A stretch of 64,000 nt of DNA from Tropicimonas sediminicola (lineage in GTDB: Bacteria; Pseudomonadota; Alphaproteobacteria; Rhodobacterales; Rhodobacteraceae): NCBI RefSeq assembly GCF_900188335.1, contig NZ_FZOY01000001.1, positions 744,001-808,000 on the forward strand, read 5' to 3'. A program made the position numbers and the translations under genes. Position 1 is the stretch's first letter, and each line of letters opens with the position of its first letter. Positions 35,105 to 64,000 of this stretch are shown piece by piece. The notes beneath the pieces were generated by a model. The model did no database searches. It worked only from the letters and a program-made list of their open reading frames with translations, and was not told the DNA's origin.

Positions 35105-37057
35105 TCACGCGATGTCGTCGAGCGTGAGCCCTTCAAGCAGCAGCGAGTTCTCTGCCCAGCTGATCAGAACACCGCCGGCCTTCGCCACCTCGGTGACCGT
35201 CGCCTTGGTCTTGATGGTGTAGCTGTCGCTCTCCGGATCGAAATCGGTGATCACGTCGTCGCCGGTCGCACCGGCGAAGATGAACGTATCGCGACCGCCG
35301 CCGCCGATCAGAACATCGTTGCCGCCGTTGCCGTAGAGCTTGTCGTTGCCCGCGCCGCCATTCAGCGTGTCGTCGCCCGCGCCGCCAACCAGCCGGTCGC
35401 CCGCACCTCCGCCCGCGATCCTGTCGTCGCCGGAATCGCCCTTGAGCGTGTCGGCGCCGGCGGAGCCGTTGAGCGTGTCCCGGCCCTTGCCGCCGCGCAG
35501 GGTGTCTGCGCCGCCTCCGCCGACGAGCCGGTCGTTGCCGTCGCCGCCGTCGAGCGTGTCGTTGCCGGTCTGGCCGAAGACCTTGTCATTCCCGGCCTCG
35601 CCGAGGAGGGTGTCGTTGTCGCCGCCGCCGCGCAGTGTGTCGTCGCCGTCACCGCCAAGAACCCTGTCCGCGCCAGAGCCGGCATCGACCACATCCTTGC
35701 CGCCGAGGGCGCGCACCACATCGTCGCCTCCCCGGGCGGTGATCTCGTCCGCGCCGGCGCTGCCTTTCAGCGTGTCGTCCTTTGCGGTTCCGTAGATCTG
35801 CTTCGGGCCAACGGGCTGTGACTTGCCCGCATCGGCGGTGACCTCGAAGAGCCGGTACTGCAGCTGGTCGACGGTGCCGATCGCGCTCTGGTCCACGTAG
35901 CTGACCCAGACCTTGCCATCGGCCGTCTCTGTCATGTCGTGCAGGTACTGGACGCCGGCGCTGTTGCTGTTGAGAAACCGGGCCGGGCCGGCGACGGTGC
36001 CATCGCCGTTGAAGGCCTGTGCCTTGATGCCGACGCTGTCGGTGCCGACATCCGCCTCGTTCTGCGTCCAGGCCACGATGAAGCCGCCGTTCGACAGGCC
36101 GAGAATGTTGAAATCGTTGCGGACGCTGTCGGCGCCGTTGGGCACGTCGATCTCGACCGCCTTCACCAGACGGGCCGCCTTGTCATAGGTCTCGACACGG
36201 AGGTTGTTCGAACCGGTCGCGGGATACTGCTTCCAGACAAGTGCGAAGCCGCCGTTCTTCAGCGCCGCCACCTCCGGATGGTCGCGGCGGGTGCCGGTCT
36301 CGTCTAGATCGACCTCGTAGCGGCCCTTGCCGGTCCCGGAAATGCCGGTCGGCGCATCGTTCAGACCGGCGCCACTGATCCAGAGATTGACGGGGTAGCT
36401 GTCGTCGTTGACCGCGACGAAATTGCCGTTGGACAGTTCGGCGATCCCGGGAAGGAAGACGAAGCCGTCCGTGGTGATCTCGACCTCCTTGCCGACGCGC
36501 CCACCCTGGGCGTCGAACCGCTGGGCAAAGGCGCCTTCGTTGGGGCCGCCATCCGTCCAGATCGCCAGGAATCCGCCGTCCCTGGTGGCGATGACGTTGC
36601 CACTGGTGTTGTCGTCGTCGTAGTTGGAGCCGCCGGTCACGGTGTGCGGATCGTCCCGGGTCACGATGATCTCCTTGCCGCGCGGCGAGCCGTTGGCATT
36701 GAAGATCCGGGCATGGATGTCGGTGTCGTTGTGGCCCTGTCCCAGCGGGGCGTAGCTGACCCAGCTCATGACGAAGCCGCCGTCCTTCAGCGCGGTGATT
36801 TCCGGACTGCCCTGGATCCCCGCCGTCGTCATGTTGACCAGTTTCACCGCGCCCGATGGCTTGCCGCCGGCCGAATAGAGCTGAACGAAAATGGCTCCGT
36901 CGGTGTCGGTGAAGCCGCCGGCCGGAAAGACCAGGGTCTGCGCCCATGCGACGGCAACCTTGCCGTTTTTCAATCCTGCGGAAACGGGGGTGATACCGTC
37001 GAAGATGGCGTCGACGGATCCGAGGTCCTTTGACGGACCAAGAGGTTTGATTGTCAT
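35105..37057 (-). CDS. Large RTX calcium-binding protein
   Basis: The 650-residue protein has an N-terminal region (~1-420) with repeated units of the pattern LKDGGFVMSWVSY, TRDGGFLAIWTD and LSNGGFIVAWTQN, which look like blades of a beta-propeller. About sixteen RTX nonapeptides follow (~445-600; GGDGDDTL, GGGDNDTL and similar). It ends in a short C-terminal segment (GVLISWAENSLLLEGLTLDD) resembling a type I secretion signal. No Sec signal is present. Start: ATG at 37057, with upstream in-frame codons rejected as non-family. It is divergent from the iron-binding protein gene; no exporter genes are near. Confidence 0.88.
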   Translation of the reverse strand: MTIKPLGPSKDLGSVDAIFDGITPVSAGLKNGKVAVAWAQTLVFPAGGFTDTDGAIFVQLYSAGGKPSGAVKLVNMTTAGIQGSPEITALKDGGFVMSWVSYAPLGQGHNDTDIHARIFNANGSPRGKEIIVTRDDPHTVTGGSNYDDDNTSGNVIATRDGGFLAIWTDGGPNEGAFAQRFDAQGGRVGKEVEITTDGFVFLPGIAELSNGNFVAVNDDSYPVNLWISGAGLNDAPTGISGTGKGRYEVDLDETGTRRDHPEVAALKNGGFALVWKQYPATGSNNLRVETYDKAARLVKAVEIDVPNGADSVRNDFNILGLSNGGFIVAWTQNEADVGTDSVGIKAQAFNGDGTVAGPARFLNSNSAGVQYLHDMTETADGKVWVSYVDQSAIGTVDQLQYRLFEVTADAGKSQPVGPKQIYGTAKDDTLKGSAGADEITARGGDDVVRALGGKDVVDAGSGADRVLGGDGDDTLRGGGDNDTLLGEAGNDKVFGQTGNDTLDGGDGNDRLVGGGGADTLRGGKGRDTLNGSAGADTLKGDSGDDRIAGGGAGDRLVGGAGDDTLNGGAGNDKLYGNGGNDVLIGGGGRDTFIFAGATGDDVITDFDPESDSYTIKTKATVTEVAKAGGVLISWAENSLLLEGLTLDDIA

Positions 37058-37260
37058 GATGTCACTTGTAAAGTAATTGAATTTGATGGTTTTTCCAACC
37101 GGCGGCACGGTTTCACGGTGGTCGAAACGGGTCAAGGGTTTTGGTGGGCCGGTGGATCGGCACATGTGCCCCGGTGCCGCGCCGCATCAGTTTCGAGTTG
37201 ACGAAATCGAAAAACCGATAGAAACACTCGGATAATGAAACGCGCAACCCGGGAGACCCC

Positions 37261-56239: not shown

Positions 56240-58840
56240 ATGAAACGACCTACACTTCTGAAACGCATCGGCGTTTGGGGCATCTGCCTGCTGTGCCTGT
56301 GGCTCGCCCTGCCCAATGCCTTCTACGCGCGTGTCGACGCGCAGAACCAGTCCTCCGCCGCCGAGCACGCCGTGGAGGCAAGCTGGCCCGGCTGGATGCC
56401 GTCCTCGCTCATCAACCTCGGGCTCGATCTGCGTGGCGGTGCGCACCTTCTGGCCGAGGTGGACGTGCTCGGCGCGATCGACCAGCGCCTTGCTGCCCTG
56501 TGGCCCTCGCTGCGCGATGCCCTGCGCGAGGAAGGGGGCAGCTCGGTCCAGATCAGGCGGATTGATGCGCCTTCCGGTGAAATGCGCATCGCGCTCACAC
56601 CGGCGGACTTCTCCGAGCGGGCAGCCGAGATCGCGGCAGGTTTCGCTTCGAGTGTCGTGACGCCGGCTGGCCTGGCGGCGCAGGATCTGGACGTGGCGCT
56701 CGAGGAGGGCGTGCTGGTGCTGCGCTACTCCGATGCCGGCACGCAGGCGCTGACCGACCAGCTGGTCTCCCAGAGCCTTGAAACCATTCGCCGCCGGATC
56801 GACGAGGCAGGAACCCGCGAGCCGACCATCCTGCGGCAGGGCGAGGACCGGATCGTGATCGAGGTGCCGGGCTTCTCCGACGCCGAGGCTCTCAAGGGCC
56901 TGATCGGGACCACCGCGCAGCTGTCGTTTCACGAGGTCCTGCCGCGTGGGAGCCAGGACGACGATAGTGCCCTCACCTTGCCCTTGGCCGGGGAGGCCGG
57001 GGTGACCTACCAGCTCGATCCGAAGCCGGTGGTGTCGGGCGATCACCTGACGGATTCGCAGGCGAGTTTCGATCAGAACGGGCGCCCGGCGGTCTCCTTC
57101 CGCTTCGACACGGCCGGCGCGCGTGCCTTCGGTGATTTCACCGCCGCCAATATCGGCAGCCCCTTCGCCATCGTGCTGGATGGAGAGATCCTGTCGGCGC
57201 CGGTCATCCAGGACCATATCCCGGGCGGCAGCGGGATCATCACCGGGCAGTTTACCATCGATGAAAGCACACAGCTGGCGACGCTGCTGCGCTCCGGCTC
57301 CTTGCCGGCAAAGCTGACTTTCCTTGAGGAAAAGACGGTTGGCCCCGAGCTTGGCAGTGACAGCATTGCTGCGGGCCTGAATGCCGGGCTGATCGGGCTT
57401 GCGGCCGTCAGCGCGCTGATGCTGGTCTGCTACGGCGGTCTGGGCCTGGCGGCCGTCGCTGCGCTGGCCATCAACATGGCGATCCTGATGGCCGTCCTCT
57501 CCGTCGTCGGAGCGACGCTGACCCTGCCGGGGATTGCGGGGATCGTCTTGACGCTCGGCATGGCGGTGGATGCCAACGTGCTGATCTTCGAGCGCATCCG
57601 CGAGGAGGTGCGCAGCGAGCGGAACCTGTGGCGGGCGGTCGGGCGCGGGTTCGACAATGCCTTTTCCTCGATCCTCGACGCGAACCTCACCGGCCTGCTG
57701 ACCGCCGGGCTGATGTTCTGGCTCGGCGCCGGCCCGGTGCGCGGCTTCGCGATCACCCTGGGGCTGGGCATCCTGACCTCGATGTTCACCGCGCTTGTGG
57801 TCACGAAGCTCATCCTGCAGAGCTGGCTGGAATGGCGTCGCCCCTCCCGCCTGCCGCTGAACGGGCTGTTCCGCTTTCTCGACCGGCAGCCGGTGATCGA
57901 TTTCTTCCGCCTGCAATGGGTGACCTTCGGCGCCTCCGCCACCGCCATGCTGGCCTCGATCCTGCTCATCGCCACGCTCGGCCTCAACCTCGGCATCGAC
58001 TTCACCGGCGGAACCAGCCTGCGGATCGAGACGCCACATGTGCTGCAACTGGAGGAGTACCGGGGCGCGCTGAGCGACCTCGGGTTCGCCGACGTGGCGG
58101 TGTCCGAGGTCTTCGGCTCGGGCGGGGCGGACGCGGCCCATGTCGCCAACCTCCGCATCGCCGCCGAGAGCGACGGGGCATCGGGCGGTGCCGCATTGTC
58201 GTCGGAGCAGGTGCAGGATGTGCGCACGGCGCTGTTGCAGGTGGACCCGGACATGAGCTTCACCGCGAGCGAAAGCATAGGCGGCAAGGTCTCTCCGGAG
58301 CTGGTCAATGCCGCGATGATGGCGATCGCGGGCGGGGTGCTCTCGATCCTCGCCTATGTCTGGATGCGCTTCGAATGGCAGTTCGCCGTCGGTGCGGTCG
58401 TGGCTCTCGTGCACGACATCCTGCTGACGCTCGGGTTGTTCGCCCTTCTGGGGTTGAAGATCGACCTGGCCTTCGTGGCGGCGCTGTTGACCATCCTCGG
58501 GTATTCGATCAACGACACGGTCGTTGTCTTCGACCGGGTGCGCGAGAACCTCAGGCGCCATGTCTCGATGCCCCTGCGGGACCTGCTGAACCTTTCGGCC
58601 AGCGAAACGCTGAGCCGGACCGTGCTGACGTCGGCGACCACGCTGATCGCCCTGTTGGCGCTGTTGCTGTTCGGCGGGGACGTCATCCGGAGCTTTGCGC
58701 TGGCGATCACCTTCGGGATCGTGGTCGGCACCTATTCGACAATCTACGTGGCCAAGAACATCGTCCTGTTCCTCGGCGTCGACCGAAGACTGCCGGAGGC
58801 CCGGAAGCCCGTCGGCCGGTTCGATCACATCGAAGCGTAA
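56240..58840 (+). CDS. secDF: Protein translocase SecDF (fused SecD-SecF)
   Basis: The 866-residue protein fuses both halves of the proton-driven export motor. SecD: TM1, then INLGLDLRGGAHLLAEVDVL, the periplasmic P1 domain, and TGQFTIDESTQLATLLRSGS before five helices containing MAVDANVLIFERIREEVR. SecF: LNLGIDFTGGTSLRIETPHV, then YSINDTVVVFDRVRENLR. ATG at 56240 follows GGAGAGATC; a longer start at 56168 is less likely. Fused SecDF in alphaproteobacteria is often a second copy beside separate secD and secF; those are not in the window. Confidence 0.93.
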   Translation: MKRPTLLKRIGVWGICLLCLWLALPNAFYARVDAQNQSSAAEHAVEASWPGWMPSSLINLGLDLRGGAHLLAEVDVLGAIDQRLAALWPSLRDALREEGGSSVQIRRIDAPSGEMRIALTPADFSERAAEIAAGFASSVVTPAGLAAQDLDVALEEGVLVLRYSDAGTQALTDQLVSQSLETIRRRIDEAGTREPTILRQGEDRIVIEVPGFSDAEALKGLIGTTAQLSFHEVLPRGSQDDDSALTLPLAGEAGVTYQLDPKPVVSGDHLTDSQASFDQNGRPAVSFRFDTAGARAFGDFTAANIGSPFAIVLDGEILSAPVIQDHIPGGSGIITGQFTIDESTQLATLLRSGSLPAKLTFLEEKTVGPELGSDSIAAGLNAGLIGLAAVSALMLVCYGGLGLAAVAALAINMAILMAVLSVVGATLTLPGIAGIVLTLGMAVDANVLIFERIREEVRSERNLWRAVGRGFDNAFSSILDANLTGLLTAGLMFWLGAGPVRGFAITLGLGILTSMFTALVVTKLILQSWLEWRRPSRLPLNGLFRFLDRQPVIDFFRLQWVTFGASATAMLASILLIATLGLNLGIDFTGGTSLRIETPHVLQLEEYRGALSDLGFADVAVSEVFGSGGADAAHVANLRIAAESDGASGGAALSSEQVQDVRTALLQVDPDMSFTASESIGGKVSPELVNAAMMAIAGGVLSILAYVWMRFEWQFAVGAVVALVHDILLTLGLFALLGLKIDLAFVAALLTILGYSINDTVVVFDRVRENLRRHVSMPLRDLLNLSASETLSRTVLTSATTLIALLALLLFGGDVIRSFALAITFGIVVGTYSTIYVAKNIVLFLGVDRRLPEARKPVGRFDHIEA

Positions 58841-59134
58841 GACCTTGCGCTCTGTCCGTGTTCCCAGTCGGCACGGGCAGGGCGCCCCGTCGGCGTCCAG
58901 CGAAGAATTTCGAGCGGGGCAGACTCGCGCGCACTGCCCTGGCCCGTCACGACGTTTCAGGTCATGGAAAGCCGTGGCCCGGGGGCAAGGCTCTGAGATG
59001 GAGGGCTTTCCGGGGGCGGTGGTGGGTGATGAGAGACTGCCATGTTTCCGAAATTTGGAAGTAAAATCAGTACTTCGGTGTCCCGCGCGCCGCGCAATGC
59101 CGCGTTATGCGGATCAATGACTTAGTGGGCAGGG
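58841..59134 (+). other. Gap between secDF and the IS array
   Basis: No gene is supported in these ~294 bp, and no trace of the GTA gp15 5' part is seen here. CAATGAC at 59115-59121 recurs at 63279-63285 just outside the right end of the array, so it may be a target duplication if the left IS end lies at ~59122 rather than 59135. Confidence 0.4.
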
Positions 59135-59164
59135 TGTCCCACGGATTTCTGTCCAGCCCCATTC

Positions 59165-59443
59165 CTATGGGCCAATTCTGAGTAGAGTTTCGGGGACCGG
59201 TGGCCTCATTTTGAGCGCTTGATGCGGGCGGATGTGGTTGTACTCCCTGAGCCAGCAGTTGATAGCGATCTGGGCCTGTCTGGTGGTCGAGAACCACTCA
59301 GCATTCAGGACCTCGCGGCGGAGGGTGCCGTTGAACCGCTCGTTGTATCCATTCTCCCAGGGCGATCCCGGATAGATCCGGATGGGTTTCACTCCGACCT
59401 TCTCAAGCCAGGCCTGCGTAGCTTCGGCGGCGAACTCGGGACC
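59165..59443 (-). pseudogene. IS3 transposase OrfB, C-terminal half
   Basis: The 93-codon piece starts at GGT (59443) with GPEFAAEATQAWLEKVGVKP. It holds the DDE glutamate in SPWENGYNERFNGTLRREVL and ends HIRPHQALKMRPPVPETLL and four more residues. It continues the N-terminal half that stops at SDN (61074): together SDN-GPEF restores the catalytic-Asp signature. Confidence 0.88.
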
Positions 59444-59451
59444 GTAGCACC

Positions 59452-59467
59452 TCGGGAAGAATGGCTG
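59452..59467. repeat. Left subterminal inverted repeat of IS110 element 1
   Basis: TCGGGAAGAATGGCTG, 8 nt inside the left end, matches the reverse complement of 61049-61065 (TCGGGAAAAATTAGCTG) apart from three differences, one of them a gap. Confidence 0.65.
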
Positions 59468-59580
59468 CCGAGAGGTTATGGCCACGCGCGCAGCCCTCAG
59501 ATAGCGCAGCGTGTGGCCATAACCGGGTCTCAGGTCTCAACAGTGGTTTTGCATGAACCACACCGCTGAGGAGACCGGCT

Positions 59581-60837
59581 ATGACCGCCACCGATACTAC
59601 CGCCTCGACCTTGATGGTCGCCATCGACATTTCCAAGCATCGCCATGAAGTGTTGATCGGCGCCCCCGGCAAAAAGCGCCGTCGCCGACTGACGATCACG
59701 AACGCGCTGGACGACTTTCAGCGCTTGGCCACGGCGCTTTCCAGCTACGATCTACCGGTGCGGATCGGGTTTGAGGCGACCGGCAACTACCATCGGCCGT
59801 TGGCGCACCACCTCGGCCAGGCCGGGTTCGATCTGAAGCTCGTCTCTTCCGTCGGTCTGGCCCGGACGCGTGAAGCCCTGCACAACAGCTGGGACAAGAA
59901 CGATCCCAAGGACGCCCAGGTCATCCTGCACATGCTCGAGATCGGGGCTGTTCAGTTCTTCCATGATCCGCTTGTAACCGGCACTGCCGACATCCAGGAA
60001 CTGTCGAAGACGCACGAGATCGTCTCGCGTTCGAAGACCGAGCTGTGGCATCGCATCCTGACCCACTACCTGCCGCTCTACTTTCCCGAGGCCGAACGCT
60101 TTCACCGCAGCTCGCGCACCGACTGGTTCCTGGCCTTCCTGGAGAAGTATCCGTCACCACACATGATCTCTGCCATGAGCTGCGAGGCCTTCATCGCCGA
60201 TGCCTGGCAGGTAGTCGGCCGCAAGGTGTCCAAAGAACGCTTGCTTTCAGATATTTACGCCACGGCGGTTGGCTCCGTGGGATTGCCCGTCCACCCGGAC
60301 TCCGATGCCGTTCGCATGTTCCGCCTCGTGCTGGCCGAAGGGCGCAGTCTGGTTCGACAGCGCGACGAGATCGAGGCGCGGGCCGTCGAGCTTCTCTCCG
60401 ATCACCCGGACTACCAGCTCCTGACCACCGTCCCGGGGATCGGCCCGATAAACGCTCTGACCATTCTCGCCGAAGCCGGTGATCTGCGCCGGTTCCGGCA
60501 CCACCGACAGTTTCTGAAGTTCTGCGGCATGGATCTCGCCACCGTGCAGTCCGGAATGTTCCGCGGCCAGAGCAGGATATCCAAATACGGCAACGCCCGG
60601 CTCCGCCGAACCTTCTGGATGGCCGGCCAGGTCGCGGTTCTCAAACGCACCAACAGCTTCCGCGACAAGTTCGAACGCTACATCGCGCGGGATCGACACA
60701 ACGCCCATCTGCGTCGCAAGGCCTACACCGCAATCGCTGCCAAGATGGCGCGCACCGTACACGCCGTGGTCAAACACGGCGAACCCTATCGCCCCTTCTT
60801 CGAGGGGGTGAGCCCAGGCGGAAGGACCCTTGTCTGA
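59581..60837 (+). CDS. IS110-family transposase 1 (DEDD recombinase)
   Basis: The 418-residue protein has the RuvC-like DEDD N-terminal domain (MVAIDISKHRHEVLIG, FEATGNYHRPLA, KNDPKDAQVILHMLE). The C-terminal Tnp_20 domain has TVPGIGPINALTILAEAG, LKFCGMDLATVQSG with Ser, and SKYGNARLRRTFW. It is longer than usual (~340-400). IS110 enzymes use a guide RNA to choose donor and target. Codon use matches the chromosome, and the frame is intact, so it may be active. Confidence 0.9.
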   Translation: MTATDTTASTLMVAIDISKHRHEVLIGAPGKKRRRRLTITNALDDFQRLATALSSYDLPVRIGFEATGNYHRPLAHHLGQAGFDLKLVSSVGLARTREALHNSWDKNDPKDAQVILHMLEIGAVQFFHDPLVTGTADIQELSKTHEIVSRSKTELWHRILTHYLPLYFPEAERFHRSSRTDWFLAFLEKYPSPHMISAMSCEAFIADAWQVVGRKVSKERLLSDIYATAVGSVGLPVHPDSDAVRMFRLVLAEGRSLVRQRDEIEARAVELLSDHPDYQLLTTVPGIGPINALTILAEAGDLRRFRHHRQFLKFCGMDLATVQSGMFRGQSRISKYGNARLRRTFWMAGQVAVLKRTNSFRDKFERYIARDRHNAHLRRKAYTAIAAKMARTVHAVVKHGEPYRPFFEGVSPGGRTLV

Positions 60838-61073
60838 TAAGAGCCGTGGAGGCAGCTCGCTGACCTCGTAGATAATGTTCAGGTCTTCCGCTTGGGATTT
60901 TGGATCTCGTCTTAAGGACGGTGAGGGCCGCCTCTGCGCGTACCCTGTGTTTGCTATGGGAGAGACCGCTTCTTGACGGCGGAGACCGCCTGGGCAACCA
61001 TATCAGGGCATTCGGGACACCGGATGCCCCATGACCTGCTGACCTAAACAGCTAATTTTTCCCGATATAGGAC
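60838..61073 (+). ncRNA. Candidate guide (bridge/seek) RNA region of IS110 element 1
   Basis: This 236-nt non-coding right end lies where IS1111-group elements encode their guide RNA. It can fold; GGGCATTCGG (61006-61015) pairs with CCGGATGCCC (61020-61029) with one G-U pair, and GGCGGAGACCGCC is another short dyad at 60978-60990. The assignment is from position and structure only. Confidence 0.4.
61049..61065. repeat. Right subterminal inverted repeat of IS110 element 1
   Basis: CAGCTAATTTTTCCCGA, 8 nt inside the right end, is the inverted partner of 59452-59467. Confidence 0.65.
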
Positions 61074-61626
61074 GTTGTCGCTTCGGACGAACTCGGGCTT
61101 TCCGTGCCGCAGGAACAGGCCGTAGAGGACCTCAAGCACGTCCTCTGATCTCATCCGTGTCCTGACCTCCACCGCGAGCGCCTGGCGGGTGTATTCATCC
61201 AGCACGGTCAGCATCTTGTAGCTGCGCCCGTTGCTGAGCTTGTCGTGAACGAAATCGACGCTCCAGACGTGGTTCGGATGCGTCGGTCGCAGCCGGATGA
61301 TCGAACTGTCCTTGTGGTAGAGCCGTCGTTTCTGCTTTTGGCGCTGAGGGAGTTGCAACCCTTCCTCGCCCCACAGGCGCTCGATCTTCTTGTGGTTCAC
61401 GCGCCAGCCCTCGATCCGCAGCAACTCGGTCACCTTGCGGTAGCCGTAGCGACCATAGCTCTTTGCCAGGCGGATCATGGCCAGCCGCAGGGCGTCATCG
61501 TTCTTCTCGACGGCGTGGTACTGCATCGAGCTGCGGGCAAGGCCGATCACCTCGCAGGTTCGCCGCTCCGACGTGGCGAGCTTCTGGCGGGTGTGAATGA
61601 CGGCCTGACGAAGCTGGCTCGTCGTC
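61074..61626 (-). pseudogene. IS3 transposase OrfB, N-terminal half
   Basis: The half begins in the overlap with orfA, whose stop is at 61625, where IS3 elements use a -1 frameshift. An internal GTG is at 61550. It contains SYGRYGYRKVTELLRIEGWR, the first catalytic Asp in HVWSVDFVHD, and ends HGKPEFVRSDN at 61074, where IS110 element 1 begins. In the present DNA translation would run into the IS and end VLYREKLAV at 61044. Confidence 0.85.
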
Positions 61627-61783
61627 AGGCCCTGGGCTTTAGGAAATTCAGGCTTTCCTTGAGAATGAGCTTGTCGAGTTCCAGCTCTGCCACGATCTTC
61701 TTCAGTCGGGCATTTTCCTTCTCAAGGCCGCGCAACTCCGAAAGTTGCGACTTGCACATCCCGCCGAACCGACGACGCCAGTT
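61625..61783 (-). pseudogene. IS3 OrfA, C-terminal part
   Basis: The 53-codon piece starts AAC TGG (61783) as NWRRRFGGMCKSQLSELRGL. It has the leucine-zipper ENARLKKIVAELELDKLILK and ends at 61625. It continues the N-terminal piece at 63231-63100. Confidence 0.85.
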
Positions 61784-61789
61784 GATGGG

Positions 61790-61804
61790 ATGGACGGCTC
61801 TCCC
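61790..61804. repeat. Left inverted repeat of IS110 element 2
   Basis: ATGGACGGCTCTCCC is the exact reverse complement of 63084-63098. Confidence 0.85.
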
Positions 61805-61848
61805 GCCCCCGGCACAGGATCGGGTTGCTGAAGACACAGGAGGGAAGA

Positions 61849-62865
61849 ATGACCATCACGACCATCGGAATTGATCTTGCCAAGAACGTATTCGAGCTTT
61901 GTGGGCTGGATGATAGCGGGGAAATAAAGCTACGCCGACGTGTGCGGAGGGAGACACTTCTTCGGGCTGTCGCAGAGGTCCCGGCCTGTGTGATTGGTAT
62001 CGAGGCTTGCACCGGCGCATTTTATTGGCAGCGCCAGTTCGAGGCGCTTGGCCATGAGGTCCGGATCATCGCGCCGCAGCACGTCAAGCCTTTTGGTCGG
62101 CGGCAGAAGAATGACCGCAACGATGCCGAGGCCATCGCGATTGCAGTCGTCCAGCCCCGCATGCGGTTCGTGCCGAAGAAAAGTGTCGCCCAGCAGGATG
62201 TGCAGACCCTGCATCGGGCGCGGCGGCGCATGGTCAATCACCGAACCGCATTGGTCAGTCAGATGCGTGGCATTTTGCTTGATCGTGGGATCGCCTTCGG
62301 GCAGTCGATCACGCGGGCTCGCGCCATGATCTCTCGGATCATCGAAGACGAGAGCAATGAGCTCACGAAGCTTTGCCGCGAGACCCTGTCATCCCTCCTG
62401 GCATTGATGGCCGAGATCGACATGCGGGTCCGGGAGTTCGACAGACGCATCGACCAAGTCTACCGGGAGAGTGAGGCCTGTCGCCGGGTGGGGAAGATAC
62501 GTGGTGTAGGGCCGAAGACTGCCACTGCCGTCGTTGCCGCGATCGGGGATGGCCGCGACTTCGACAACGGTCGACACATGGCTGCCTGGCTGGGACTGGT
62601 CCCGCGCCAGCATTCCAGCGGAAACCGAACAGTCCTGATGGGGATCAGCAAACGTGGCGACCAGCATCTGCGAACTCTGCTGGTCCATGGCGCCCGCGCG
62701 GTCGTTCGAACTGCAGTCGGCAAGACGGATCGGTTCAGCCAATGGGTGAATGAGCTCCGGGAGCGCCGCGGGACGAACCGCGCCATCGTGGCCGTCGCCA
62801 ACAAGAATGCGCGCATCATCTGGGCACTGCTGGCCAAGAATGAGGAATACCGTCCCGCAACCTGA
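61849..62865 (+). CDS. IS110-family transposase 2
   Basis: The 338-residue enzyme has the DEDD motifs in TIGIDLAKNVFELCG, GIEACTGAFYWQRQFEALGH and KNDRNDAEAIAIAVVQPRMR. The C-terminal Tnp_20 domain follows (RGVGPKTATAVVAAIGDG, AAWLGLVPRQHSSGNRTVL with Ser). It has the normal length and an intact frame. The ATG at 61849 follows AGGAGGGA. It is probably still functional with the RNA encoded in its right end. Confidence 0.92.
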   Translation: MTITTIGIDLAKNVFELCGLDDSGEIKLRRRVRRETLLRAVAEVPACVIGIEACTGAFYWQRQFEALGHEVRIIAPQHVKPFGRRQKNDRNDAEAIAIAVVQPRMRFVPKKSVAQQDVQTLHRARRRMVNHRTALVSQMRGILLDRGIAFGQSITRARAMISRIIEDESNELTKLCRETLSSLLALMAEIDMRVREFDRRIDQVYRESEACRRVGKIRGVGPKTATAVVAAIGDGRDFDNGRHMAAWLGLVPRQHSSGNRTVLMGISKRGDQHLRTLLVHGARAVVRTAVGKTDRFSQWVNELRERRGTNRAIVAVANKNARIIWALLAKNEEYRPAT

Positions 62866-63099
62866 CGCGGAACGGTTCAAGGTGCAGGCGAGAGAGGAAA
62901 TGACCCGACCGGACGGTCCCGGTGCATGGAGACCCTGGCTTTTATAAAGGCCTTTGAGGCCGACCATTTGTTGAGGGCCATGCTTCGCGGATTACCCATT
63001 TGGGCGCGCCGACATCGACCGGCGACGCCGGATAGATGTCAGCACCCGTCATCGATCGGAGGCCGCCTCGAAAAGCTTGCATAGGGAGAGCCGTCCATA
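62866..63099 (+). ncRNA. Candidate guide (bridge/seek) RNA region of IS110 element 2
   Basis: The 234-nt non-coding right end after transposase 2 is in the place and of the size expected for an IS1111-group guide RNA. No gene is supported on either strand. Target-matching loops should hold parts of the junction GCGACCTATTACATC/AACTGG; I did not confirm such a match by eye. Confidence 0.4.
63084..63098. repeat. Right inverted repeat of IS110 element 2
   Basis: GGGAGAGCCGTCCAT, the exact reverse complement of 61790-61804, ends one base before the deduced right limit. Confidence 0.85.
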
Positions 63100-63231
63100 G
63101 ATGTAATAGGTCGCATCGCTGACACCGACTGCACGACACGCCGCCCGAACGTCGTTTCCCTCCGCCAGCTTCAGTTCGATCTCGCGCAACAGCTTCAGGA
63201 TGTCTTCGTCCGAATAACGCTTCCGAGCCAT
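63100..63231 (-). pseudogene. IS3 OrfA, N-terminal part
   Basis: ATG at 63231 follows GGACAGGAG. The 44 codons begin MARKRYSDEDILKLLREIEL and carry the helix-turn-helix AACRAVGVSDATYY, ending in ATC at 63100. The rest of orfA resumes at 61783; in the present DNA the frame runs into IS110 element 2 (YGRLSLCKLFEAASDR). Confidence 0.87.
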
Positions 63232-63284
63232 CTCCTGTCCCCCTTCCTCGGCCAAATTAGTGGCCCAGTTTTAGGGGGCAATGA

Positions 63285-64000
63285 CAACCCTATCCGTTCT
63301 TTCCCGAACTGACCGATGTCTGGAGCGATGGCGAGAACTGGCGGCTGGGGCACTGGCTCACCGGCCGGCTCGGCTCCGCGTCGCTGGCCGCGCTGGTGCG
63401 CGATCTCTGCCTCCGGGCCGGGCTGACCGCCGATCAGATCGATGTCTCCGGTCTCTGGGGCGCCGTCGAGGGCTATGCCGTCACCGGGATCGAAGCGCCG
63501 CGCAATGCGTTGACCACGCTGGGACGGCATTTCGGCTTCGATGCGGTGGAGAGCGAAGGTGTCATCCGGTTCTTCATGCGGGGCCGTGCCGCGGTGGCGA
63601 CGCTGACCCTCGACGATCTGGTGGCCGCGGAGAGCGGCGAGCCGATCGAACTGACCCGCGCCCAGGAGACGGAACTGCCGCAGGCGCTCAAATGGAGCGT
63701 GACGCGGGCAGATGAGGATTATGACGCGGTGGTGGTCGAGGCGCGTCGCATCACTGTGGAGTCCTCGCGGATCAGCAGCGAGTCCTTCCCCATGGCGGTG
63801 CCGGCAGAGGAGGCGGAACGGCGTTGCCGGCGCGCGCTGATGGAGGCATGGGTCGGACGGGAGACGGCGAGCTTCCGGCTCCCGCCCTCCCGGCTCGCGC
63901 TGGATCCGACAGATGTGATCTGGCTCGATCATGACGGCAGGCTCACCGAATACCGCCTGACCTCCGTCGCTGATGGCGAGGCGCGCAATGTCGAGGTGAT
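63285..64000 (+). pseudogene. GTA tail/host-specificity protein gp15, 5'-truncated (continues beyond window)
   Basis: From CAA at 63285 the frame is open for 238 codons to the window edge. The in-frame triplet before it (63282-63284) is TGA. The text YPFFPELTDVWSDGENWRLG, HWLTGRLGSASLAALVRDLC, then GFDAVESEGVIRFFMRGRAA matches the phage-tail (Phage-tail_3-like) part of the rhodobacterial GTA gp15 protein, also labelled host specificity protein. The N-terminal TIM-barrel part (~600 residues) is missing at the IS3 end and not seen left of the array. A product from an internal start is possible. Confidence 0.8.

Follow-up and report, generated by a model that had tools for sequence, protein, structure and literature searches.

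Two mobile elements of the IS110 class lie inside one copy of an IS3-family insertion sequence (IS) in the genome of Tropicimonas sediminicola, which raises the question of what brought both of them to the same host. The window analyzed here, the whole stretch of 64,000 nucleotides at positions 744,001 to 808,000 of contig NZ_FZOY01000001.1, belongs to a 5.17-Mb genome in 32 contigs. Near its right end, one minus-strand IS3-family element (approximately 59130-63280) is cut by two plus-strand IS110-class elements, E1 and E2. Our analysis indicates that E1 and E2 are very probably distantly related RNA-guided elements, which entered this IS3 copy in separate insertions and were steered to conserved codons. 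In related elements, insertions recur at the same sites, the guide strings of the E2 group change together with their targets, and both the predicted hairpins and a donor guide of E1 show covariation.

According to the proposed mechanism, each transposase would use an RNA from the 3′ non-coding region (NCR) of its own element, and two short guide strings in this RNA would read opposite strands of a target of roughly 10-12 bp. In the E2 group, the right guide UUUUAUA(AA) would pair with TTGTARWA and the left guide CCAUUUG with the coding strand of CCANNTR, jointly spelling the T-[F/Y]-Y-x-W codons of the OrfA helix-turn-helix. The candidate right guide of E1, GAUAAUG, would spell Asp-Asn-Gly, which is the catalytic DNG signature in rve transposases, and its left guide is tentative. 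At most third-codon positions, the predicted guide base can pair with both synonymous choices (U opposite a purine, G opposite a pyrimidine), and one RNA could track a conserved protein motif despite synonymous differences between its targets. We infer that these RNAs are produced and guide insertion, and that the pairing tolerates wobble at the positions named.

The interrupted IS3-family element

The host element (minus strand, 59130-63280) was recognized by Pfam and NCBIfam models and by its uninterrupted relatives. Its right end, ...GGGGGCA, lies at 63280, and its left end can be placed only to about 59126-59149. OrfA contains HTH_Tnp_1, and OrfB contains HTH_21, rve and rve_3, the combination of an OrfA helix-turn-helix with HTH_21 and a DDE integrase core that defines the IS3 family, here with the genes in four pieces (all on the minus strand). 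The IS3 part of the upstream OrfB piece (61044-61550) stops with ...RSDN at 61074, from where the open reading frame (ORF) continues into E1, and that of the downstream piece (59165-59485; ORF start within E1) starts with GPEF at 59443. Both pieces are flush in the NCBIfam IS3 model (positions 110-283, then 284-366), each alone scoring below the whole-protein cut-off of this model. In OrfA, the IS3 part of the upstream piece (63049-63255) stops with ...DATYY at about 63103, and that of the downstream piece (61625-61837) starts with NWRRRFGG at about 61783; the pieces meet at positions 41 and 42 of the HTH_Tnp_1 profile both in the window and in one other member of the E2 group.

E1, E2 and the middle IS3 segment are each single-copy in the T. 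sediminicola genome. The intact IS3 relatives for which an earlier note on this DNA had proposed to search were found outside this genome: three loci (L170, L171 and L190) are continuous across both sites and show 75-77% identity over the middle segment of 710 bp. Together with the Pfam and NCBIfam assignments, they confirm the claim of that note that one IS3 element received two IS110-type insertions. The note had also called the two IS110 types unrelated. Both are indeed IS110-class, with scores of 224.7 and 336 bits (cut-off 140) for the two transposases in the NCBIfam model NF033542, "IS110 family RNA-guided transposase", but these proteins turned out to be distant relatives (27.6% identity over 145 amino acids). 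Their 3′ NCRs are not significantly similar (best blastn E 0.27), and none of 4227 Rfam models matched the region 58800-63600 at E up to 1. Both transposases (59581-60837 and 61825-62865) also gave sub-threshold scores of 42.4 and 30.7 bits with a model of the TIGR-Tas RNA-guided endonuclease (cut-off 100).

The excisions proposed earlier were thought to be exact to the base. This holds for E1 (59444-61073, with 59445-61074 equally possible) within one ambiguous base: its relatives end identically, and uninterrupted relatives read through the site with RSDNGPEF or RSDNGAEF (RCDNGPEF in one case). For E2, the cut at 61784-63099 was 3 bp short and left TYYINW, with an Ile codon that uninterrupted relatives lack. 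A single residue stands between Tyr-Tyr and Trp in nine of the ten uninterrupted relatives whose OrfA motif can be read (TYYNW, TYYTW etc.); it is Asn in four of them (L170, L190, L171 and L174), and the sole exception is a fragment (L187) with two residues. Because these relatives read TYYNW and not TYYINW, we placed the ends of E2 at 61783-63101, 3 bp farther apart. The error amounts to one codon, and the OrfA frame therefore survives either cut, in agreement with the claim that both frames rejoin.

E1 relatives insert at Asp-Asn codons

E1 (1630 bp, plus strand), whose full-length relatives share both ends, splits OrfB between the SDN and GPEF codons. Its transposase (418 amino acids, 59581-60837, plus strand) contains the DEDD_Tnp_IS110 and Transposase_20 domains, and its length lies within the 395-455 amino acids given for the subgroup containing IS110 in PMC11187229. 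IS110-type members have the longer NCR upstream, and E1 has 137 bp of non-coding DNA upstream and 236 bp downstream of the transposase gene. Since its conserved NCR is downstream, we did not class E1 as a typical IS110-type member; exceptions of the IS110 type with a downstream NCR are mentioned in the same source. Inspection by eye revealed an inverted match of approximately 10/11 bp near the ends, which is not among the 25 longest of 85 repeat pairs.

E1 DNA has a match, in some part, in 57 of 345 genomes of the family. As a class-wide protein search gave few genomes (2 of 337 at E ≤ 1e-100), plasmid records were used for comparison: 134 records match E1 DNA, 56 of them over at least 80%, and 25 of the 134 were sampled. 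With the ends taken from BLAST and no condition placed on the flanks, the right flanks of 35 loci (window included) begin with GTTGTC (30 loci), GTTATC (3), GTTGTG (1) or GTTGCC (1). GTTRTC, the Asp-Asn codons, begins 33 of the 35, which comprise 32 distinct 14-mers, and at 29 of 30 left ends CC precedes the junction base. The two variable bases of the target are third-codon positions, with G in 34 and A in 8 loci for Asn and G in 36 and A in 6 for Asp (42 loci each, without L163, which contains runs of N); these codon counts are partly circular, as the end patterns used to collect the 42 loci contained part of the target, and the 35-locus set is free of that.

The interrupted genes were identified from flank peptides of at least 45 amino acids at 48 loci (window included), each side being searched alone. 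On the right, 28 of 34 peptides matched rve, and on the left 32 of 37 matched rve_3; with NCBIfam models 22 of 34 hosts matched IS3 and 26 of 34 IS481, the two sets overlapping. Two insertions (L015 and L151), assigned from peptide and annotation, lie outside transposases, one in a subtilase gene and one in a TonB-receptor gene, both at Asp-Asn-Gly codons. Judged from these flanks, E1 targets the codons that encode DNG in rve transposases and, at two loci or more, also where they occur in other genes, which implies that a short DNA motif, rather than the gene, is the target. The two loci also represent natural E1-type targets outside transposases.

The downstream NCR of E1 looks like a guide RNA, as its donor string covaries with the left end and its hairpin covaries too. 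The donor guide UUUGCUA (60950-60956, plus strand) is predicted to pair with the left end TAGCA, and it follows this end in 35 elements: TAGCA occurs with TTTGCTA in 28 and TAACA with TTTGTTA in five, leaving one wobble (L013) and one mismatch (L164). In L164, the left end TAACA stands against TTTGCTA, and the right part of the element looks like that of the other sub-lineage; this copy may be a recombinant. The second candidate donor guide, AGGACG (60915-60920, plus strand), is identical to the right end ...TAGGACG. The candidate donor strings stand in the order described for the IS110 type, bottom-strand before top-strand; the target strings, with their weak left candidate, give no clear order. 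Between the presumed target guides lies a hairpin (60849-60867, plus strand), in which 97.5% of cells are paired and 11 cells are changed on both sides, a level reached by 0 of 500 shuffles. It is followed by the right-target guide candidate GAUAAUG (60871-60877, plus strand), which would pair with CRTTRTC and places U opposite both third positions. In 37 aligned elements, this string reads GATAATG in 34, GATCATG in one and GGTAATG in one, and is unreadable in one. GCCGU (60843-60847, plus strand), chosen by its position ahead of the covarying hairpin, is an uncertain candidate for the left-target guide. TTCRGGYC was considered as an alternative left guide without a clear result, and a GACCT/AGGTC stem around the right guide was rejected, as it is not kept in all copies.

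E2 relatives insert mostly in OrfA and change guides with their targets

E2 (1319 bp, plus strand), with ends set by relatives lacking the extra codon and by the repeat extensions, splits OrfA between ...TYY and xWRRR.... Several features place it in the IS1111 group. Its subterminal inverted repeat (15 bp, 100% identical, 61790-61804/63084-63098) is of the perfect or near-perfect kind, usually 11-13 bp, typical of this group, and the ends at 61783-63101 give extensions of 7 bp on the left and 3 bp on the right, the values described for IS1111 members in PMC11187229 (ends moved by a base or so would also fit the empty site). The transposase (61825-62865, plus strand; PF01548 and PF02371, the DEDD and Transposase_20 domains) has 346 amino acids, within the group range of 330-350, and the NCR downstream of it is long (236 bp, against 42 bp before the ORF). 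The predicted top-strand guide is 5′ of the bottom-strand guide, which is the IS1111 order.

A scan of a genome collection with six aligned transposases gave 486 relatives of E2, of which 80 loci were kept and 74 tabulated (four Legionella and two Burkholderia cenocepacia loci were left out). The alignment of 33 loci comprised 28 tabulated ones (at least 57% identity, usable repeat), the window copy and four others. L071 (no repeat found) and L070 (no readable right target) were dropped, and L191, an Escherichia coli copy with a degenerate right end, was excluded from the end analysis. Some loci are likely duplicates by their identical flanks or scores (for example L034/L062, L038/L067 and L039/L065), and identical guide-target combinations were counted once. 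Where both flanks are readable, the sites read CCANN|T-RTA... or nearly so, corresponding to the codons [F/Y]-Y-x-W. Flank peptides of at least 20 amino acids from 28 loci matched HTH_Tnp_1 in 18 of 24 cases on the right and 14 of 22 on the left; one left peptide matched another helix-turn-helix, HTH_32, and three hosts (L068, L069 and L074) are not OrfA-like. Relatives of one gammaproteobacterial member of the group were found in 288 of 5426 complete E. coli genomes, in 89 of them over 80% or more of the query, with an IS3 transposase annotated under the match in all ten matches listed. Relatives of at most 54% identity in which a repeat was found have different flanks. Many of these at about 50% identity or less (L099-L141) have AATGGG on the left and GTAC on the right, which by their flanks is a separate target; several Variovorax copies among them share a nearly identical right flank.

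The predicted 3′ RNA of E2 has the layout CCTG..-[right guide]-GGCC..GGCC-..-[left guide]-..GAGG. The right-target guide UUUUAUAAA (62940-62948, plus strand), which would pair with TTGTARWA, stands ahead of the left-target guide CCAUUUG (62964-62970, plus strand), which would pair with the coding strand at the x-Trp codons. The GGCC...GGCC hairpin between them (62949-62961, plus strand) shows changes on both sides at three of four pairs, reached by 0 of 500 shuffles, and 99.0% of cells are paired over the whole structure; its pair-type count is no higher than in shuffles. The guides differ between sub-lineages together with the sites. In L072, L074, L078 and L097, the left guide CCAGCTG accompanies the target CCAGC, and a right guide ending in ...ATCG the target CG. 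Gammaproteobacterial members combine CCAGTTG with CCAATT or CCAGTT, and also with CCATGT and CCAGGT at one or two mismatches, and their right guide TATTATAT with ATAATA. Across 32 elements with 27 distinct combinations (22 with full targets), guides and targets pair in 286 of 308 cells; shuffled targets gave a mean of 260.6 and reached the observed level in 0 of 5000 trials.

The comparison of insertion sites suggested in the earlier note thus revealed the same motifs again for both elements, mostly in rve or OrfA-type genes. Its proposal that RNA programming makes conserved IS3 sequence a preferred target is supported by the recurrence of sites at the same codons and by E2-group guides that change with the site, with guiding by RNA as the probable cause. 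The suggestion that an element at the DNG site can track many IS3 relatives agrees with the recurrence of E1-type insertions there in divergent hosts, mostly in rve genes. Targeting of these catalytic codons had already been published for ISEc21 (PMC11187229).

Wobble pairs at third-codon positions

For E2-type elements, three third-codon positions (R7, R10 and L7) contain 44 Watson-Crick, 33 wobble and four mismatched pairs (81 in total), compared with 232, three and 15 at the ten non-third positions (250 pairs). Opposite dG, the guide base is U in 28 and C in four cases at R7 and R10, versus U in three and C in 52 at the non-third positions (Fisher 2.6e-15, a value that ignores relatedness). 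An excess of wobble pairs is, in these alignments, the special feature of third-codon positions. The right guide of E1 likewise places U at its two third-codon positions, even though G is the commoner target base there. Wobble in guide-target pairing is plausible because IS621 tolerates one rG:dT pair, at target position 4 (PMC11208160). Selection may have favored these wobble-tolerant guide bases. We consider the chances about even that some IS110-class guides are codon-degenerate (U opposite A/G and G opposite C/T at third positions) and follow a protein motif, and that two distant lineages converged on this solution while preying on transposase genes.

Several observations weigh against guided insertion or against its codon-degenerate form. 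The left guide of E1 is weak, and two elements (L148 and L167) lack GCCGT yet keep the target. The number of changed pairs in the E1 hairpin (two) is no higher than in shuffles, and when the two non-coding stretches of E1 are shuffled, a 7-mer like its right guide appears in 207 of 2000 trials. Some E1 hosts look alike and could share one insertion by descent. Because the compared elements share ancestry, the shuffle and Fisher values cannot be read as probabilities of independent events. The guide of E2 in the window has two mismatches and one wobble in 14 positions against its own target, and position 6 of the left guide in L072, L074, L078 and L097 does not pair with the junction base in its right-hand copy. 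The third-codon position L4 breaks the rule with 11 Watson-Crick, three wobble and eight mismatched pairs of 22 (one of them C.A), and C.A/A.C pairs are absent from R7, R10 and L7 and from the non-third positions alike, their absence at third positions being nothing special.

Alternative explanations

Most of the examined sites lie in transposase genes, and this clustering would be uninformative on targeting if IS110-class elements inserted widely and only hits in dispensable IS genes were kept. The bare E1 core CCRTTRTC occurs six more times in the 64-kb window, once inside E2; the motif alone is therefore insufficient for the transposase bias, and survivorship may well add to it. However, survivorship cannot fix the same base of the same codons across IS families, as seen with GTTRTC at 33 of 35 right ends, nor does it fit the insertions in the TonB-receptor and subtilase genes at these codons, and we regard it as a very unlikely explanation of the sites. 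It is very unlikely, too, that the motif is read by the transposase protein instead of an RNA. The transposases are similar within each group, and the RNAs are predicted here from the DNA sequence, but among E2 relatives with transposases 57-89% identical the guide strings vary in step with the target, and published members of both groups use RNA, according to PMC11187229 and PMC11208160.

The sites might also recur through copying, if one ancient nested composite had spread by descent or as a unit. Apart from the window, two loci (L033, and L077 of Labrenzia sp. THAF82, the record of which is titled a complete genome) have both element types around one IS3-like stretch, with the E1-type part partial at the end of the retrieved locus (L033 shows 92 bp of the right end and L077 about 1.1 kb), and several E1 hosts have similar OrfB sequences. 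The stretch between the elements in L077, however, is 351 bp long, compared to 710 in the window, and only 57.3% identical to it, which argues that L077 is not a copy of the nest described here. The distribution of E1 hosts over the IS3 and IS481 models and the diversity of right-flank 14-mers also make a single composite highly improbable. An assembly artefact in the window is hardly credible: repeats often break assemblies, and this one is in 32 contigs, but each part of the nest is single-copy in the genome, and the nest is interior to a contig of 914,591 bp. Moreover, L077 has a similar arrangement in a chromosome titled complete, and single E1 insertions occur in plasmid records, most of which are titled complete. 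Separate, RNA-guided insertion at conserved codons accordingly remains our preferred reading.

Relation to known RNA-guided elements

In the passages of PMC11187229 that concern it, ISEc21 (IS110 family) is described as targeting the codons that surround the second D of DDE in some members of the IS3 family, and its movement needs RNA from its NCR. E1 shares this class of site, the IS3 catalytic codons, and adds a further example to a principle already in print. ISEc21 differs in having an upstream NCR and a transposase of 358 amino acids, in contrast to the downstream conserved NCR and 418 amino acids of E1; this comparison is with the published description of ISEc21. ISEc21 was not found among the matches listed, the best 60 of 1547 records. 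The record named in PMC7096625 is that of a drug-resistance plasmid.

E2 resembles IS1111 members with seekRNAs (ISEc11, ISKpn4 and ISPa11) in its subterminal repeats, downstream NCR and leading top-strand guide, but the targets named for these in PMC11187229 are a short linear site, attC and REP, whereas that of E2 is IS3 OrfA coding sequence. The IS621 bridge RNA combines a target and a donor loop in one RNA, as we propose here; IS621 targets REP elements and has in general a low tolerance of mismatches, and the passages on it in PMC11208160 contain no mention of wobble or a codon pattern. Within the open-access literature, which excludes subscription papers, preprints, supplements and ISfinder, our searches brought up neither the OrfA target nor the codon-wobble guide pattern.

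One RNA-guided class of mobile elements would repeatedly exploit a second class via codons that its victims can hardly change. IS4321/IS5075, reportedly another IS1111 element specialized on mobile elements, is said to target the terminal inverted repeats of the Tn21 family, not codons as E2 appears to do. If the wobble reading is true, natural bridge RNAs would provide a rule for tolerating synonymous variation, by which a guide follows a protein motif across families, and this would bear on the specificity of programmable recombinases.

Other features of the window

The nest has secDF as its left neighbor. To the right of the IS3 element, 63281-64000 belongs to a phage tail gene (PHROG 4271, positions 729-962 of 1309; Phage-tail_3), the start of which is not adjacent to the nest. 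The IS3 copy may mark a deletion or rearrangement. Elsewhere in the window, 35105-37165 encodes a protein with RTX calcium-binding repeats (Pfam HemolysinCabind).

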